Shown here piece by piece: positions 44,900 to 52,900 of a stretch of DNA of 64,000 nucleotides (positions are counted from its first letter, which is position 1; each line of letters begins with the position of its first letter). A program made the translations under genes and the position numbers. The notes beneath the pieces are model-generated. The model was not told where the DNA came from, did no database searches, and saw only the letters and a list, made by a program, of their open reading frames with translations. The DNA comes from Armatimonadota bacterium (GTDB lineage: Bacteria; Armatimonadota; Fimbriimonadia; Fimbriimonadales; Fimbriimonadaceae): assembly GCA_016125185.1 (NCBI GenBank), contig WGMG01000006.1:186001-250000 (forward strand), read 5' to 3'.

Positions 44900-45532
44900 T
44901 TACTTCTTCCGCCGTCGAGCCAGCGCCAGGACGCCAATGCCCAGAACCGCCAGCGAGGCCGGCTCCGGAACCGGAGCGAACGTGGAATAGAGGCCGCTGA
45001 TCTCGGTTTGTCCAACGTTCGTCAGGTCGTACTCGGCGACGCGGGCGTAAGACGTTGCGTCGGTATCCAGGTAGAAGAACTTCGACGAGGTGCGAGGATC
45101 GAGACCACCACCACCGGCATCGTCGAGGAAGTTGAAGTTGACGAATCCTCCCGGAGTATTGAAGAGGAGAGCCTTGGTCGGACTCGTGTCCCCAAGGCTG
45201 GTCGGATCCCAATCACCATCGTAAGTCGAGGTGATGAAATTGCCGAGCCGAAGGTCGGAGATTTTCCCCGCCGAGTTGGCATCGTTAAACACTCGCCAAG
45301 CGAAGAAGTACGTGCCGTCGGCCTTCAGAACCACCCGATTCTGAACTTGACCAGAAACCGTGCCGCCGTACGCCGAGAACGAGAAGGGAACCAGGTCGTC
45401 TTCGACGACGGTTCCGCCAGGTGTCTGGGTTCCAGGAAGTGGCGTCCATACGCCAGGTGTGAGAATGACAGCGTTTGCCGAAGCAGCCGCGACGAGCACG
45501 AGGCCCGCCAATAACATGCGATTTGTTTTCAT
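44900..45532 (-). CDS. PEP-CTERM anchored protein
   Basis: This secreted protein of 210 residues has a signal peptide (residues 1-21, ending ASANA). Its C-terminus is a classic PEP-CTERM signal: VPEPASLAVLGIGVLALARR then RKK. The middle is a beta-rich domain of unknown function with several Asp and Gly turns. The ATG at 45532 follows GGGGACAAACAC, so the longer open frame upstream is not used. An exosortase elsewhere in the genome should sort it. Confidence 0.9.
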   Translation of the reverse strand: MKTNRMLLAGLVLVAAASANAVILTPGVWTPLPGTQTPGGTVVEDDLVPFSFSAYGGTVSGQVQNRVVLKADGTYFFAWRVFNDANSAGKISDLRLGNFITSTYDGDWDPTSLGDTSPTKALLFNTPGGFVNFNFLDDAGGGGLDPRTSSKFFYLDTDATSYARVAEYDLTNVGQTEISGLYSTFAPVPEPASLAVLGIGVLALARRRKK

Positions 45533-45676
45533 GTGTTTGTCCCCAAATGTATTTGAAGCGGAGGCGGTCAATCGACCGACCAATCCAGGCATTATTATCC
45601 ACAGGAAGTCCTTGTAAATCTGCAGGGGAATCGCTTATGCAGGTCCTTAGTCCGTCGTACTTTTGGCCGACAAGGG

Positions 45677-45964
45677 CTATGGATGAAGCCAAGTCCAGCC
45701 CGGAAGCAGGTTTGGATTGAGCTTCATCACGACCCAAAACGTCAGCACCAAGATCCAGAACCCGGCGGCAATAAGTGGGTAGCGAAGGTAGCACTTCGTG
45801 TCTCGCTTGCCCCGAACATAACCCACGATGAACAGGGTGGCAGATAAGAGCGCGGCCAGCGGCAAGGCGAATTTGCCGGCGATCAATGAGAACGTGGCGA
45901 TCTTGCAATAGGCGAAGGCAAGTCGTCCGGCCTTATCCTTCGTGGCTTCTTGTTCAGTACTCAT
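45677..45964 (-). CDS. Two-helix membrane mini-protein, last gene of the zinc-ribbon operon
   Basis: This 95-residue protein has two hydrophobic segments (about 30-50 and 65-85), with a short charged loop (YVRGKRDTKCYLRYP). It has no zinc ribbon, unlike its six neighbours, but its ATG overlaps the stop of the previous gene by four bases (ATGA), so it is part of the same operon. A longer open frame upstream is a shadow. Confidence 0.65.
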   Translation of the reverse strand: MSTEQEATKDKAGRLAFAYCKIATFSLIAGKFALPLAALLSATLFIVGYVRGKRDTKCYLRYPLIAAGFWILVLTFWVVMKLNPNLLPGWTWLHP

Positions 45965-46290
45965 TGCTTCCTCATGTAGGCAACGTTTAGAACGTACAGA
46001 ACGATGCCGACCAGGATGGACGCTGGGCAGCCAAGTGAGGCAACCAGAAACCAGACATTCGAGGCCGTCGTTGGAGAATCTAGAGAGAAGTTCAGCCAGC
46101 AACCGCCGAAAGCGACAAGGGGCAAAATCAGGATGAACATCGCAATGATCCAGGGCGAGAACCGATGGGAAGACACCTTTCCATACGGATGTCTTTCGTT
46201 GATCAGCGACGCTCCGCAATAGGGGCACCATTGTGCGCCGTGCAGAATCGGCTTCGAGCAATGGGGACATTTCTGTTCGGGAATAGACAT
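45961..46290 (-). CDS. Zinc-ribbon membrane mini-protein (ribbon 6)
   Basis: This 109-residue protein has an N-terminal ribbon, CPHC...CPYC (residues 8-25), then about two membrane helices (residues 49-69 and 78-102). It follows ribbon 5 with one base between and overlaps the last mini-protein by four bases. The ribbon side should be cytoplasmic. Confidence 0.75.
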   Translation of the reverse strand: MSIPEQKCPHCSKPILHGAQWCPYCGASLINERHPYGKVSSHRFSPWIIAMFILILPLVAFGGCWLNFSLDSPTTASNVWFLVASLGCPASILVGIVLYVLNVAYMRKQ

Positions 46291-46291
46291 A

Positions 46292-46549
46292 TCAAGGTGG
46301 TCCGGTGAGAAAGTGAATCAGGCTAAGAACGGCAGTACAGACGCCGCCAAAGAAGGCGATGGAAAGAAGGTTGGGGGATTCTAATGAGAGGTACCCCGTA
46401 GCGCCGGTGAAGAGGAAGCAGGCGGTGACGACCCAGCCCGATACCAACGGCTTAGTGCGAGGGACGGGTTTCTTTCGTCGAGTGCGACAATGCGGGCAGT
46501 AATCACGGCCTATCAGGATTGGGTGCTCGCAGGTTGGACACGGCTCCAT
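46292..46549 (-). CDS. Zinc-ribbon membrane mini-protein (ribbon 5)
   Basis: This 85-residue protein has a ribbon CPTC...CPHC (residues 4-21) and two hydrophobic segments (about 37-55 and 61-82). The ATG at 46549 lies 20 bases after the stop of ribbon 4; AAGGAAGG is upstream but rather far. The longer open frame is not used because it overlaps ribbon 4. Confidence 0.7.
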   Translation of the reverse strand: MEPCPTCEHPILIGRDYCPHCRTRRKKPVPRTKPLVSGWVVTACFLFTGATGYLSLESPNLLSIAFFGGVCTAVLSLIHFLTGPP

Positions 46550-46569
46550 GAGTTGATCGACACCTTCCT

Positions 46570-46863
46570 TCACTTTTTCTGCCTTGGCATAAAAGCCAGA
46601 ATGAGGAACACAACGAGGCCAACGGCGGGCAACGTTAGGTAAATCCATCCGTTCGGATTAGTGATGGCGATCGGGCAAGCACCGCAGCATTCCAGAGGAC
46701 ACATCAGCAAAGCGAGAAGAATCCAGAGGAACTGGAAGTTTGATTTGGGCTTCGCATCGGGCGGTTTTGCCGCCCACCCACAGCTCGCACAGTAGTCGTT
46801 CCCAGACGGGATCTCTTTGCCGCAGTTCGGGCAAGGAACGGTGTTCGGCTTGTGCTGACTCAT
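46570..46863 (-). CDS. Zinc-ribbon membrane mini-protein (ribbon 4)
   Basis: This 97-residue protein has a ribbon CPNC...CASC (residues 11-29) and two hydrophobic segments with a Cys-rich turn (MCPLECCGACP). Residues 1-31 nearly repeat those of ribbon 2 (KPNTVPCPNCG and GNDYC are shared), and the DNA is also very similar over about 85 bases, but the membrane parts differ. The start overlaps the stop of ribbon 3 by four bases. Confidence 0.75.
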   Translation of the reverse strand: MSQHKPNTVPCPNCGKEIPSGNDYCASCGWAAKPPDAKPKSNFQFLWILLALLMCPLECCGACPIAITNPNGWIYLTLPAVGLVVFLILAFMPRQKK

Positions 46864-47063
46864 CCCCACACCTTCATTAAGAATATGATCAGAATCGCTC
46901 CGAGAGCAATGGAGAAGATCATCGCTAGGGCGGTCGGAGCCACGGCGTCATTGGGCAATTTAGAACCACAAGCCGGATAGCATCTGGCTCCTTTTGAGAT
47001 GATATCTCGGCAGTCGGGGCACCTCATGATCTCGACCAATGGCGGTGCCTTTGGTTGGATCAT
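46860..47063 (-). CDS. Zinc-ribbon membrane mini-protein (ribbon 3)
   Basis: This 67-residue protein has a ribbon with altered spacing (CPDC then CYPAC, residues 15-33) and one membrane helix (about 42-64). It overlaps the stop of ribbon 2 and the start of ribbon 4 by four bases each (ATGA). It is the shortest of the group, and the second half of the ribbon may bind metal weakly. Confidence 0.7.
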   Translation of the reverse strand: MIQPKAPPLVEIMRCPDCRDIISKGARCYPACGSKLPNDAVAPTALAMIFSIALGAILIIFLMKVWG

Positions 47064-47347
47064 TTAGGCTTTCTCTTCCAAAACGCTAAACCAACTAGGA
47101 GCACAAACAGGATCCCAGTCACCGACCAAATTCGCCAGGGTTTCCCGAAAAGGAACAGTCCCAACAAAAAGCCAATCGCGAGGATAAAGAGGCTAAGAAT
47201 GCCCAAAATCGCTTGTCGGATTTTGAATGCCTGTTCACGTTTGCGTTCCTCAGAAGCCCAGCCGCAATATGGGCAGTAGTCGTTCCCGGCGGGAATATCT
47301 TGGCCACAGTTCGGGCAAGGAACGGTATTCGGCTTTTGCTGGCTCAT
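47060..47347 (-). CDS. Zinc-ribbon membrane mini-protein (ribbon 2)
   Basis: This 95-residue protein has a ribbon CPNC...CPYC (residues 11-29), a basic linker (ERKREQAFKIRQ) and two membrane helices (about 45-67 and 72-90). Its N-terminus is nearly the same as that of ribbon 4. It starts seven bases after ribbon 1 ends. Confidence 0.75.
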   Translation of the reverse strand: MSQQKPNTVPCPNCGQDIPAGNDYCPYCGWASEERKREQAFKIRQAILGILSLFILAIGFLLGLFLFGKPWRIWSVTGILFVLLVGLAFWKRKPK

Positions 47348-47354
47348 GATTGTT

Positions 47355-47624
47355 CTACGGTTTTGCCTGAGTCGGAGCCGGTGGCTGTCCGTTCGACGTC
47401 ATGGCGTTGTTAATGTAGAGGAATGCAAAGCACCCTCCACAGCAAATGAATGGCAAAACGAGGAGGACGATCAGCACGATCGCCCAAATCGGCATTCTTC
47501 GCGAGCCCTTCGCGCTGTTGTAGCCAGGTGCTCCGGCACCACAGCGGGAGCAGTATCCGCCTCCATTGGGAAGCTGGGCTCCGCAGTTGGGGCAGTTATG
47601 AGTGATTGGTGGCTCGTTGTTCAT
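47355..47624 (-). CDS. Zinc-ribbon membrane mini-protein (ribbon 1)
   Basis: This 89-residue protein starts at the ATG at 47624 and has a ribbon CPNC...CSRC (residues 11-29). One membrane helix follows (about 45-67) with a CCGGC turn, and the tail is Pro/Gln-rich. It overlaps the end of the Lgt-like gene by 29 bases, so translation is coupled. Confidence 0.75.
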   Translation of the reverse strand: MNNEPPITHNCPNCGAQLPNGGGYCSRCGAGAPGYNSAKGSRRMPIWAIVLIVLLVLPFICCGGCFAFLYINNAMTSNGQPPAPTQAKP

Positions 47625-48300
47625 GGCTGGCCTCCTTTGCATAAAGATATACACCCAGGGCAAGAATGGCTAGGCATCCTTTTTGGGCGAGCGACAAGCC
47701 GACGTGCGGCTCGACAGGTTGACGAAAGAATTCGATAATGAATCGACCAAGCGACCACAGCACCAAATAAATGGGGAAGATCGGTGCACGGTCGCGCAGT
47801 TTCCAGACTACGGCGAAGATCGCTAGGGCCGCTACAGCCATGTAGATCTGGGTCGGATGCCGAAGCGCTCCGTGCTGGTAGATCGCCCACGGCAAATCGC
47901 ACTCTTTCCCAAAGCAACAACCATTGAAGTAGCATCCGATGCGGCCGAAGAATTCTCCCGCCGGGAGCGCGAGAGCCCACAGCGGCCCGGTCGAGGTGCG
48001 AATCCCCATCCGGCGTTTGGCGACCTCGACCGCCAGCCAGCCGCCAACGACTCCGCCCAGGATTGTGCGTCCGCCCGAGGTCGGATCGAACGTGCCAACC
48101 AGGTTGGCCCCTTCGACCAAACGTTCGATGAGCCTGGCAATCAGAACGCCTCCAATGGCCCCAAAAAGAAGGATTCGGGTCATCCCTTCGGTAGCGAGAT
48201 TTCGGCGTCGGGCTTCGAGCCAATACACGATGACACCGACCACGAACCCGAGACCCGTAAACGCCGGTCCAACAAGGCTTTGCGGGTCGAGAAGATTCAT
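47596..48300 (-). CDS. Lgt-like prolipoprotein diacylglyceryl transferase, variant
   Basis: Canonical Lgt moves diacylglycerol from phosphatidylglycerol to the lipobox cysteine. This 234-residue relative has seven or so membrane helices and family motifs: GGRTILGGVVGG (76-87), the arginine-containing GRIGCYFNGCCFG (119-131), RHPTQIYMA (147-155) and GRFIIEFFR (185-193). Two differences stand out. The usual histidine before the double glycine (H103 of Escherichia coli) is replaced by hydrophobic residues, and the N-x-E signature has Cys-Cys instead of Glu. The ATG at 48300 overlaps the radical SAM stop by four bases. It may transfer lipid to a different acceptor than normal Lgt. Confidence 0.85.
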   Translation of the reverse strand: MNLLDPQSLVGPAFTGLGFVVGVIVYWLEARRRNLATEGMTRILLFGAIGGVLIARLIERLVEGANLVGTFDPTSGGRTILGGVVGGWLAVEVAKRRMGIRTSTGPLWALALPAGEFFGRIGCYFNGCCFGKECDLPWAIYQHGALRHPTQIYMAVAALAIFAVVWKLRDRAPIFPIYLVLWSLGRFIIEFFRQPVEPHVGLSLAQKGCLAILALGVYLYAKEASHEQRATNHS

Positions 48301-49820
48301 AGGACTCTCAGCGTCGACACCCGATCGGGGAAGTCTTGGGCGTCGGCAAAGAGCCACCGCCAGCAGAACGAATACCGACGCGGATCCTCCTCGAAGGTGC
48401 CCACGTGGACGCAACACTGGCGAATCCGCGCTTCATGGAACGTGTGCGCATCCATGAACATTTTGACCGTCACGCGGAACGTTCGCATCGCCATCCGTTC
48501 AAGGAGTCTATCTTCGCCGCCGAAGGCTTTCCAAATTCCACCCATCAGGTCGGTCAGGCCGGGCACGCAATCGCACATCCGAAACAGGTCGCTAGCTACC
48601 TGAAGCGACGATGCCCGTTGCTGTTCGCTGAGCAGACGCTGAAGCGTGCCGTCCTGAATCATGAGGCGAAGCGAGTCTCGCACGTTCTCGAAGGAGATGG
48701 AATTGCTTGCCAAGTGAACCCATTTCTTCAGCTCGTCTCGACCAACGAGCGACACCAGGGAGTTCCATTCGCCCTTCTCGTTCTGCACAAAGTAGGCGAT
48801 GTCGCAACAGTCCTTGTGCGAGCAGGGAAGCGGAATGAAGTCGGTCGCCCGATCCAGAGCTCGGAGCACACCGGTCGGCGTCGTCCGCTTCATCGGGTCG
48901 ATGCCGCTGTTCCGCCCCGAACCGAACACAGGCTGGATTGCCAACCCGGAGCAGTAGGGCGTATTCAGACCAAGCTCCAGCAAGGCTTGCATTTCGCTCT
49001 CATTAACGCCTCGTTTGACCGTCGCTACCAGAGTCGTAAAGATTCGTTCTTGGTTCAAGAGTTCGAGGGTCTTTCGCTTTTCGTCGGCAAGCGCCTCGCC
49101 GCGGAGGTCCAGATAGACCCGATCGGAGAGCCCGTCGAACTGGAGATACACCTCGACGCGGTCGCGATGCGATGCCAGGAAGCGAAGAAACGCCTTGTCT
49201 TTCAGGATTCGCCGTCCGTTGGTGTTAACCAGAATTCGGGTGATCTTGCGTTCTAGAAGCTCTTCGACTAAGGTTTCGAAATCGCGTCGTAGGGTTGGCT
49301 CGCCGCCACTGAGCATCACCACGCTCAGCTTTCCACCTTCCCGCTCGATAACCGTATCGACGGTATGAAGAAGCTCGCTGAGGGTCGGTTTTTCCTCGGC
49401 TAACGCGGGTGTTCCAGGCTCCAGTGCGGTGGCGTAACAAGTAGGGCACTTGTAGTTGCAATGCTCGGTTAGGTTCAAAAGCAGGATGCACGAATGCTGT
49501 CCGTGCCCGGCGGGCAACCCGTCTCGATAACCGGCAGGGAATCCCCGAAAGTTGTCGGCCCGGTCTGGAACCACCGACAGCGTCGGTGTCTGCCACCCGG
49601 CGCGCGACCGCCAGAGGTTGGCGTCTTCCTCGTACAGGCTCTCCGTTTCACCATGTTCTCGGCAGAACCGCCGCATCCAAATAGAACCCGAATGCGAAAC
49701 GAGCATGGCGTCGACGAACACGTCGGGATCATCCGAGCGGACGCCGCCACGAGCGAGGCAATGCGGGCACACAGATCGCGTGTATTCCTCGATTGTGTAA
49801 GGGCGGGAAGCGACGGCCAT
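48297..49820 (-). CDS. Radical SAM enzyme of the tetraether-synthase-like family (COG1964)
   Basis: This 507-residue enzyme has the radical SAM motif CxxxCxxC at Cys121, Cys125 and Cys128 (EHCNYKCPTCYA). N-terminal cysteines (CPHC at 18-21, CREHG at 53-57) look like a rubredoxin-type metal site. The C-terminal half carries extra cysteine clusters (CSHKDCCD, CDC, CCVHV and YSFC) for auxiliary iron-sulphur clusters. This pattern, including MDAHTFHEARIRQCC near the end, matches the MJ0619/Tes family, whose archaeal member joins lipid tails into tetraethers. It heads a coupled operon with an Lgt-like enzyme. I infer a lipid or lipoprotein substrate; the reaction is unknown. Confidence 0.85.
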   Translation of the reverse strand: MAVASRPYTIEEYTRSVCPHCLARGGVRSDDPDVFVDAMLVSHSGSIWMRRFCREHGETESLYEEDANLWRSRAGWQTPTLSVVPDRADNFRGFPAGYRDGLPAGHGQHSCILLLNLTEHCNYKCPTCYATALEPGTPALAEEKPTLSELLHTVDTVIEREGGKLSVVMLSGGEPTLRRDFETLVEELLERKITRILVNTNGRRILKDKAFLRFLASHRDRVEVYLQFDGLSDRVYLDLRGEALADEKRKTLELLNQERIFTTLVATVKRGVNESEMQALLELGLNTPYCSGLAIQPVFGSGRNSGIDPMKRTTPTGVLRALDRATDFIPLPCSHKDCCDIAYFVQNEKGEWNSLVSLVGRDELKKWVHLASNSISFENVRDSLRLMIQDGTLQRLLSEQQRASSLQVASDLFRMCDCVPGLTDLMGGIWKAFGGEDRLLERMAMRTFRVTVKMFMDAHTFHEARIRQCCVHVGTFEEDPRRYSFCWRWLFADAQDFPDRVSTLRVL

Positions 49821-50956: not shown

Positions 50957-52900
50957 ATGTTTTACCTACAACTGAATAATCCGTCGGATCAGATGATCCG
51001 ATTTTGGTGGGTGCTCATTCCCATCCTCTGCGTCGTGTTCTTCAAACCGATCCTCCGCCTCTTCCTGGGAATGGTTATCGTTCCCGAAAACCGAATCGGT
51101 TTGGTCACGAAGAAATTCGTCATCTTCGGCGCACACCGCCAGTTGCCGGACGGACGCATTCTTGCGACTCATGGCGAAGCTGGAATCCAGGCCGAAACCC
51201 TAGCCCCTGGCCTTTACTGGACCATGTGGCCGTGGCAATACGCCGTCACCATGGCGCCGTTTACGGTCGTGCCGGAAGGCAAGGTCGGCCTCGTGCTGTC
51301 CAACGACGGTTTCGAACTCCCGGCGGGCAACATCTTGGCCCGCAAGGTCGAGTGCGACAACTTCCAGGACGCCGTGGCGTTCTTGCATAACCAAGGTCAA
51401 AAGGGCCGACAGACGCACGTGCTGACCTCCGGTACTTACCGAATCAACACGCTGGCGTTTGCCATCAGCCTGACTGACATCACGATCATCCATGAGAACA
51501 TGGTGGGCATTGTCACCGCGCTCGACGGCAAGCCGATCAAGCAGGGACAGATCGCGGGTGAGACGGTGGAAGGTCATAACAACTTCCAGAACGTCGACCG
51601 ATTCCTGGAGAATGGCGGCAACCGAGGTCTGCAACCGCAGGTCATCCTGGCCGGTAGCTACTTCATCAATCCGTGGGCGATCCAGATCGAGGAGACCCCG
51701 ATGACGGAGGTGCCGATCGGCCATGTGGGCGTCGTCATTTCGTTCATCGGCGAGGACGGCAAGGACCTGACCGGCGAGTCGTTCAAGCACGGCAACATCG
51801 TGTCGATGGGCTACCGAGGCGTCTGGATGGAGCCGTTGGGACCGGGTAAATACCCGATCAACAAGTACACCATGAAGGTGGAGCTGGTGCCGACGACCAA
51901 CCTGGTGCTGAACTGGGCCAACGCCCGGTCCGAAGCGCACGCGCTGGATAAGAACCTCTGCACAATCACGGTTCGTAGTAAGGACGGATTCCCGTTCAAC
52001 CTCGACGTGTCGCAGATCATTCACATTCCGGCGACCGAGGCTCCGAAGGTCATCGCCCGTTTTGGCAGTATGACGAACCTGGTTTCGCAGGTGCTGGAGC
52101 CGACGATCGGCAACTACTTCCGCAATAGCGCGCAGGATAGCGACGTCATCAGCTTCCTCAGCACCCGAAAGGAGCGCCAGGCTTCGGCCAAGGAGCATAT
52201 CAAGGAAGTGCTGGACGAGTACAACGTGAACGCGGTTGATACGCTGATCGGCGACATCGTTCCGCCCGAAGCGCTGATGAAGACGCTGACGGATCGAAAG
52301 ATCGCCGAAGAGGCTGAGAAGACGTACGAAACCCAGCGCATGGCGCAGGAGAAGCGACAAACCCTCGAAAAGGAAACCGCGATTGCCGACATGCAGGGCG
52401 AGATCGTCAAGGCTCAGCAGAGCGTTGAAATCGCCCAGCGAACCGCCGATGCGACGGTCAAGAAGGCCGAAGGTGACGCCGCAAGCCTGAAACTGCAAGT
52501 GAACGCCGAAGCCGAAGCGACCAAGATGCGCGCTAGCGCCGAGGCGGAAGCCACCAAGGCCAAGGGTGCGGCTCAGGCCGAATTCACCAAGCTGAACGCG
52601 GTCGCCGACGCCGAGCGCATCGCCAAGACCGGTGTGGCCGAGGCCGAGAAGATCATGGCGATCGGTAAGTCGCAGGCGGAATCCTACGAACTCCAGGTCA
52701 AGGCCATGGGTGAAGAGAACTTCACCCGGTTCAAGATCACCGAGGAGATCGCCAAGGGCAACATCAAGATCATTCCGGACCTGATCGTGAGCGGAAATGG
52801 AAGCTCGAGTGACGGAAGCCTGAGTGGCCTGATGGGACTCCAGCTCTTGCAGATGCTGAAGGAGAAAGAAGCCGTTGGCGGTGGCAACAAGGCCAAGTAG
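50957..52900 (+). CDS. SPFH/flotillin-like membrane protein with four N-terminal repeats
   Basis: This 647-residue protein has a membrane helix (about 14-40). Next come four tandem repeats of about 65-73 residues (41-103, 104-176, 177-249, 250-313), each with a VPEG/IPxGHVGxV start and ending near GxYxIN. An SPFH (band 7) domain follows at about 320-450. A long Ala/Glu coiled coil (about 450-590) contains the flotillin-type pattern AEAEATKMRASAEAEATKAK. A Gly/Ser tail closes it. It should form membrane-linked oligomers. The gene has no clear partner in the window. Confidence 0.9.
   Translation: MFYLQLNNPSDQMIRFWWVLIPILCVVFFKPILRLFLGMVIVPENRIGLVTKKFVIFGAHRQLPDGRILATHGEAGIQAETLAPGLYWTMWPWQYAVTMAPFTVVPEGKVGLVLSNDGFELPAGNILARKVECDNFQDAVAFLHNQGQKGRQTHVLTSGTYRINTLAFAISLTDITIIHENMVGIVTALDGKPIKQGQIAGETVEGHNNFQNVDRFLENGGNRGLQPQVILAGSYFINPWAIQIEETPMTEVPIGHVGVVISFIGEDGKDLTGESFKHGNIVSMGYRGVWMEPLGPGKYPINKYTMKVELVPTTNLVLNWANARSEAHALDKNLCTITVRSKDGFPFNLDVSQIIHIPATEAPKVIARFGSMTNLVSQVLEPTIGNYFRNSAQDSDVISFLSTRKERQASAKEHIKEVLDEYNVNAVDTLIGDIVPPEALMKTLTDRKIAEEAEKTYETQRMAQEKRQTLEKETAIADMQGEIVKAQQSVEIAQRTADATVKKAEGDAASLKLQVNAEAEATKMRASAEAEATKAKGAAQAEFTKLNAVADAERIAKTGVAEAEKIMAIGKSQAESYELQVKAMGEENFTRFKITEEIAKGNIKIIPDLIVSGNGSSSDGSLSGLMGLQLLQMLKEKEAVGGGNKAK

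Follow-up and report, generated by a model that had tools for sequence, protein, structure and literature searches.

We analysed a 64,000-nucleotide stretch of an Armatimonadota genome (C6:186001-250000 of a 4.5 Mb assembly; hereafter the window) and describe in it an operon encoding a radical S-adenosylmethionine (SAM) enzyme of the tetraether synthase (Tes) family, a paralog of the prolipoprotein diacylglyceryl transferase Lgt, six zinc-ribbon membrane mini-proteins and a further membrane protein, m7. Across bacterial phyla, the Tes-family radical SAM enzyme, the dedicated Lgt paralog and membrane proteins with a glycine-any residue-cysteine (G-x-C) motif travel together, mostly with m7. Our comparisons demonstrate this co-inheritance, the folds, the kept catalytic residues and the outward geometry of the cysteine. 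With a probability of about 40%, we propose that this conserved multi-gene system makes modified, lipid-anchored small membrane proteins, in which the Lgt paralog would lipidate the G-x-C cysteine and the radical SAM enzyme would remodel the lipid tails.

The enzymes are variants of known families, and the system as a whole appears to be undescribed. In the open-access literature, subscription papers being outside the search, no paper brings together tetraether, radical SAM and prolipoprotein diacylglyceryl transferase. Nothing was seen there on a linkage between radical SAM enzymes and diacylglyceryl transferases; four papers contain both, and the one examined mentions them in unrelated contexts. 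The system seems to be a so far unreported means of modifying membrane lipids or proteins anchored by lipids.

Co-inheritance of the radical SAM enzyme, the Lgt paralog and m7

The sampled loci were the best 80 of 570 named loci from 85,000 species together with 20 Armatimonadota loci, remoter Tes homologs lying outside the sample. In every locus that is untruncated on the relevant side, the Lgt paralog lies on the same strand as the radical SAM gene and within ~3 kb of it. Both gene orders, with Lgt before or after the radical SAM gene, occur over several phyla. The pairing was seen in Armatimonadota, Actinomycetota, Chloroflexota, Bacteroidota, Acidobacteriota and others, and the hosts include cultured Mycolicibacterium, Microbacterium and Flavobacterium. 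Since the pairing recurs across phyla, a local coincidence of the two genes was rejected. Within Armatimonadota, 34 of 205 genomes encode the radical SAM enzyme, and the Lgt paralog stands beside it in 30 of these 34; of the other four, two are truncated and two (G141 and G174) are genuine exceptions. An earlier reading of this DNA, made from the letters and open reading frames alone (the sequence-only reading), had proposed related genomes as a test of the pairing, which is kept there and far beyond the phylum too. Additionally, over 90 loci the pairwise distances for one protein follow those for the other (correlation 0.92), in part through shared ancestry.

The third component, m7, which matched no Pfam model, contains two invariant cysteines, one in [FY]CK.AT or LC..AT and the other in ..[KR]C.L, and was found in 60 of 101 loci. 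Among 101 relatives, m7 is present in 19 genomes, the radical SAM enzyme in 20 and both in 17 (Fisher test, 2e-14); the corresponding figures for the 205 Armatimonadota genomes are 26, 34 and 24 (Fisher test, 3e-21). The genomes with m7 and without the radical SAM enzyme include contig ends (G053, G109). The sequence-only reading had counted m7 as one other membrane mini-protein; it is a membrane protein of a conserved family with two cysteines, and this family occurs together with the radical SAM enzyme. No m7 was found in the loci of the eight members whose radical SAM enzyme keeps the N-terminal auxiliary cluster of Tes. Two of these, the Armatimonadota loci L119 and L121, have in its place a DUF4395 protein with a CPVSR motif (L119:5891-6400 and L121:5389-5844). 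A relationship between m7 and these DUF4395 proteins was rejected, as there is no significant similarity. In genome G183, one contig (C60, L178) carries m7 together with a G-x-C zinc-ribbon protein and another (C19, L177) carries the radical SAM and Lgt genes, the two being either unlinked or split by the assembly.

The radical SAM enzyme and its relation to Tes

The radical SAM protein of the window exceeds the Pfam cut-offs for Radical_SAM and for the N-terminal HMPTM zinc ribbon. Among solved structures, its only whole-chain match is Methanocaldococcus jannaschii Tes (MJ0619, GDGT-MAS; 7tol/7tom). Specifically, Foldseek gives E 1.3e-31 for Tes and 5e-11 for the next entry, SkfB, while VIA gives Z 39.9 over 404 residues of 7tom and 19.8 for the next fold; the sequence comparisons give E 6e-30 (phmmer) and 1.7e-77 (profile). 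The protein thus belongs to the Tes structural family and not to a peptide- or nucleotide-modifying family, which bears out the placement proposed from the sequence. By the curators' thresholds, it is neither Tes nor TrsS, because it falls below both equivalog cut-offs: its best NCBIfam model is TrsS (NF045646) with 217 bits against a cut-off of 490, and the Tes model (NF045702) gives 159 bits against 450. Ten diverse relatives are likewise under both cut-offs, with Tes scores of 131-352 bits, and TrsS is the top NCBIfam model in 11 of 11 members tested (184-382 bits). TrsS is named in one review, without a function. The bacterial membrane-spanning lipid synthase Mss is described as having the Tes catalytic architecture (PMC13274423), and we liken it to the present enzyme by that description only.

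The ligand roles in Tes, and the dispensability of its Met439, are known from published work (PMC9433317). The window enzyme shares with Tes the rubredoxin-like site (C18/C21/C53/H56, CxxC..CxxH) and the radical SAM cluster (C121/C125/C128, CX3CX2C). Its C338, C469, C470 and C486 align with C338, C455, C456 and C470 of the C-terminal auxiliary cluster of Tes and are the predicted [4Fe-4S]C ligands. It differs from Tes in being bacterial, in its tie to the Lgt paralog, in the extra conserved cysteines C111, C333 and C339, in a clade-specific gain of a CxC pair (C416/C418), and in the N-terminal auxiliary cluster. The cysteine layout assigned to MJ0619/Tes by the sequence-only reading matches the M. 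jannaschii enzyme except for this cluster, which is lost. In a tree with one Tes sequence as outgroup, a large group (n=92) has Lys at the Met439 position and no intact N-terminal cluster. Eight sequences, from Flavobacterium, Lewinella, Vicinamibacteria, Ktedonosporobacter and two Armatimonadota, keep the cluster, though their grouping is weakly supported; a ligand check places L021-L022 within the group retaining the [4Fe-4S]N ligands.

The Lgt paralog, the G-x-C proteins and the proposed pathway

Lgt moves diacylglyceryl onto a thiol, and the fold and residues of the paralog suggest diacylglyceryl transfer to a cysteine. The second gene of the operon, described from its sequence as diacylglyceryl-transferase-like, indeed exceeds the Pfam cut-off for LGT. 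The only significant PDB match of its model (predicted local distance difference test score, 91) is E. coli Lgt (5azb; E 1.5e-7, template modelling score 0.71), and the equivalents of E. coli R143, G145, G154, R239, E243 and R246 are kept. Without exception, 90 linked paralogs keep the equivalents of the phospholipid-site arginines R143 and R239, as well as the key glycines. The paralog differs from Lgt in having no large periplasmic head and in the position of H103 of the HGGL motif, which is Leu in the window and Leu or Ile in most linked paralogs; not all true Lgts have H103 (PMC13251419). It also forms a separate clade, the linked paralogs lying on one side of a branch with support 0.963 and 18 housekeeping Lgts of Armatimonadota on the other, and it does not group with the housekeeping Lgt of the same phylum. 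It is a second copy: all eight named genomes checked encode another Lgt with a better Pfam score.

The N146 position is Cys in the window paralog. We rejected this substitution as a hallmark of the paralogs, because Cys also occurs there in Armatimonadota housekeeping Lgts. The second Lgt homolog of M. smegmatis, MSMEG_5408, has Y26H and N146C and a presumed low Lgt activity (PMC13251419); in Mycolicibacterium, linked paralogs such as that of L030 also have His and Cys at these positions, a likeness that concerns these residues only. MSMEG_5406, a hypothetical gene two locus tags from MSMEG_5408 (nearness by locus-tag numbering only), changes ~9-fold on zinc depletion (PMC7174638). In the Flavobacterium genome G105 (L099), the LGT-family genes number five or six and include a tandem pair (C25:16589-18151).

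The feature common to the mini-proteins across phyla is a hydrophobic helix with G-x-C at its outer end. By one fixed pattern rule applied to membrane open reading frames (ORFs), the motif occurs in 88 of 203 neighbouring same-strand ORFs, as opposed to 0 of 71 distant ORFs (Fisher test, 5e-15) and 4 of 155 on the opposite strand (Fisher test, 1e-21). Within the window, 3 of the 7 such ORFs of the operon have it as against 0 of the 36 others, and none of 15 zinc-ribbon proteins elsewhere in the genome has it. It recurs in separately fetched Armatimonadota loci. The net charge is +2.0 before the helix and +0.06 after the Cys, and charge predicts the outward-facing direction for 76 of the 88 proteins; since the positive charge precedes the helix and is not in the tail, the Cys should face outward, where Lgt works. 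Residue -1 is Ala, Gly or Ser in 22 of the 88, and 13 fit a Prosite-type lipobox. Judged by these residues, most G-x-C sites are not standard lipoboxes and resemble an uncleavable lipobox, so that the partner proteins of the paralog are a further difference from Lgt. In Armatimonadota the helix bears a zinc ribbon as its head; the relatives from Rubrobacter and Chloroflexota have helical heads, those from Actinomycetota Pro-rich ones, and Flavobacterium has none, its cassette consisting only of Lgt, the radical SAM gene and two peptides of 57 and 65 residues with G-F-G-T-C. The zinc ribbon was thus rejected as the shared feature, because other phyla place Pro-rich, helical or no heads on the same helix. 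The lipid- or lipoprotein-modifying pathway that the sequence-only reading drew from the gene neighbourhood is partly supported, by the Tes-family fold and the pairing across phyla; the emphasis on zinc ribbons does not carry over, G-x-C being the cross-phylum feature. This feature speaks for lipidated membrane proteins no less than for free membrane-spanning lipids.

In the pathway that we propose, the Lgt paralog would move diacylglyceryl from a phospholipid to the G-x-C thiol. The lipidated protein would stay held by its own helix, because signal peptidase II requires a small residue at -1 and most sites have none. Tes activates inert chain carbons, bonding them via cluster sulfur; by similar chemistry the radical SAM enzyme, at the cytosolic face, may form C-C (or C-S) bonds in the acyl chains of either the donor lipid or the completed lipoprotein. 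m7 may serve this enzyme at the membrane by docking or by thiol or electron transfer, and the zinc ribbons are possibly variable cytosolic heads of the substrates. In its boldest form, the proposal would define a new class of bacterial protein lipidation, namely uncleaved transmembrane lipoproteins with diacylglyceryl-Cys whose chains are radically remodelled, possibly membrane-spanning or cross-linked, by a dedicated radical SAM-Lgt pair; we regard this form as rather unlikely.

Several points weigh against the proposal. The Tes [4Fe-4S]N ligands C73, C77 and C80 are replaced in the window enzyme by A96, D100 and P103, and Met439 by Lys. Three of the six window mini-proteins have no G-x-C at the usual place, and 31 of 101 loci, part of them truncated, have no match to the pattern; the Armatimonadota families L163-L166, L168 and L173 may really be without a G-x-C protein. 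The motif was first spotted in the same loci as the first count, same-genus loci are non-independent, and the tree and distance correlations contain shared species history. The chemistry, the lipid product and the enzyme activity are all inferred.

An alternative that we consider unlikely, in line with the sequence-only reading, is that the radical SAM enzyme links fatty-acyl tails to one another to give membrane-spanning or macrocyclic lipids, with the Lgt paralog shifting diacylglycerol between lipids and the mini-proteins as accessories. The tetraether synthase is indeed its nearest fold and whole-chain match, and bacterial Tes homologs have been proposed as makers of branched membrane-spanning lipids (PMC8941075), an activity that is unproven (PMC11868695). 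However, the enzyme is far under the Tes cut-off, the N-terminal auxiliary cluster is lost in ~90 members, and the strict tie to the Lgt paralog and the G-x-C proteins is left unexplained. Moreover, many hosts are ordinary aerobic Actinomycetota, for which we know of no membrane-spanning lipids.

It is similarly unlikely that the radical SAM enzyme modifies the small proteins in the manner of ribosomally synthesized and post-translationally modified peptides (RiPPs), forming a C-S or C-C link at the cysteines of G-x-C or m7, either ahead of lipidation or in its place. Small proteins with conserved cysteines adjoin the enzyme, most starkly the two Flavobacterium peptides, m7 has its two invariant cysteines, and the extra conserved cysteines of the enzyme could hold another cluster. 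Nevertheless, the fold is that of a lipid enzyme with RiPP maturases such as SkfB distant, Pfam and NCBIfam scans matched no SPASM or RiPP-recognition domain, and the G-x-C is predicted at the outer face and the enzyme in the cytosol. Finally, we think it quite improbable that the cysteine proteins build or help to assemble a membrane complex, held together by metal or disulfides and perhaps responsive to zinc, with the Lgt paralog as a scaffold lacking transferase activity: the mini-proteins carry zinc ribbons and MSMEG_5408, with its presumed low activity, has two substitutions common to members here (PMC13251419), but the invariant R143 and R239 equivalents and key glycines are unlikely in a dead scaffold, and most other phyla lack the zinc ribbon.

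The lipidation pathway that we favour would connect the lipoprotein machinery of bacteria with a class of radical enzymes known for the most difficult reaction in making archaeal membrane lipids, and would supply a function for second Lgt copies, which are otherwise puzzling. What bacterial Tes homologs do matters, as geological lipid proxies have been attributed to them; the Lgt-linked branch, with its visible protein candidates, makes their function directly testable and warns that not every bacterial Tes homolog is evidence of membrane-spanning lipids.

Gene layout in the window

The sequence-only reading had described nine minus-strand genes, mostly joined by ATGA overlaps, with six zinc-ribbon mini-proteins. 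All nine are open frames (45677-49820), and CxxC pairs are present in all six mini-proteins (CxxC/CxxxC in z3). The overlaps are about right: exact ATGA overlaps occur at four junctions (radical SAM/Lgt, 48300-48297; z2/z3, 47063-47060; z3/z4, 46863-46860; z6/m7, 45964-45961), z4/z5 may be a GTGA overlap at 46573, Lgt and z1 overlap by ~29 bases, and z1/z2 and z5/z6 are separated by gaps of a few bases. Two starts were corrected, that of the Lgt paralog from 48417 to the ATG at 48300 and that of m7 to the ATG at 45964, which shortens m7 from 197 to ~95 residues. In z5, FFGGVC lies in the second helix, away from the usual place of G-x-C. Promoter and terminator scans gave matches at chance level only.

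Table 1 Genes of the operon, in window coordinates
Feature	Position	Strand	Basis or remark
Tes-family radical SAM enzyme, 507 aa	48297..49820	-	Pfam, NCBIfam, structure and sequence comparison with Tes
Lgt paralog, 234 aa; ATG 48300 overlaps radical SAM stop	47596..48300	-	Pfam LGT, model, residue comparison
z1, zinc-ribbon membrane mini-protein; ..LPFICCGGC, G-x-C Cys codon 47430-47432; start ATG 47624 or 47642	47355..47624	-	
z2, zinc-ribbon membrane mini-protein; z4 paralog without G-x-C cysteine	47060..47347	-	
z3, small zinc-ribbon-like membrane protein; without G-x-C	46860..47063	-	
z4, zinc-ribbon membrane mini-protein; ..PLECCGAC, Cys codon 46675-46677	46570..46863	-	
z5, zinc-ribbon membrane mini-protein; start GTG 46573 or ATG 46549	46292..46573	-	
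z6, zinc-ribbon membrane mini-protein; ..LPLVAFGGC, Cys codon 46099-46101	45961..46290	-	
m7, conserved two-cysteine membrane protein, 95 aa; ..FAYCK..KRDTKCYLR..	45677..45964	-	Third cross-phylum component

Directly downstream of the operon lies a PEP-CTERM protein (44900-45592, minus strand), a non-conserved neighbour that we take to be part of exosortase-type sorting. Upstream and divergent is a 647-residue protein that resembles membrane proteins of the SPFH/flotillin type (50957-52900, plus strand).

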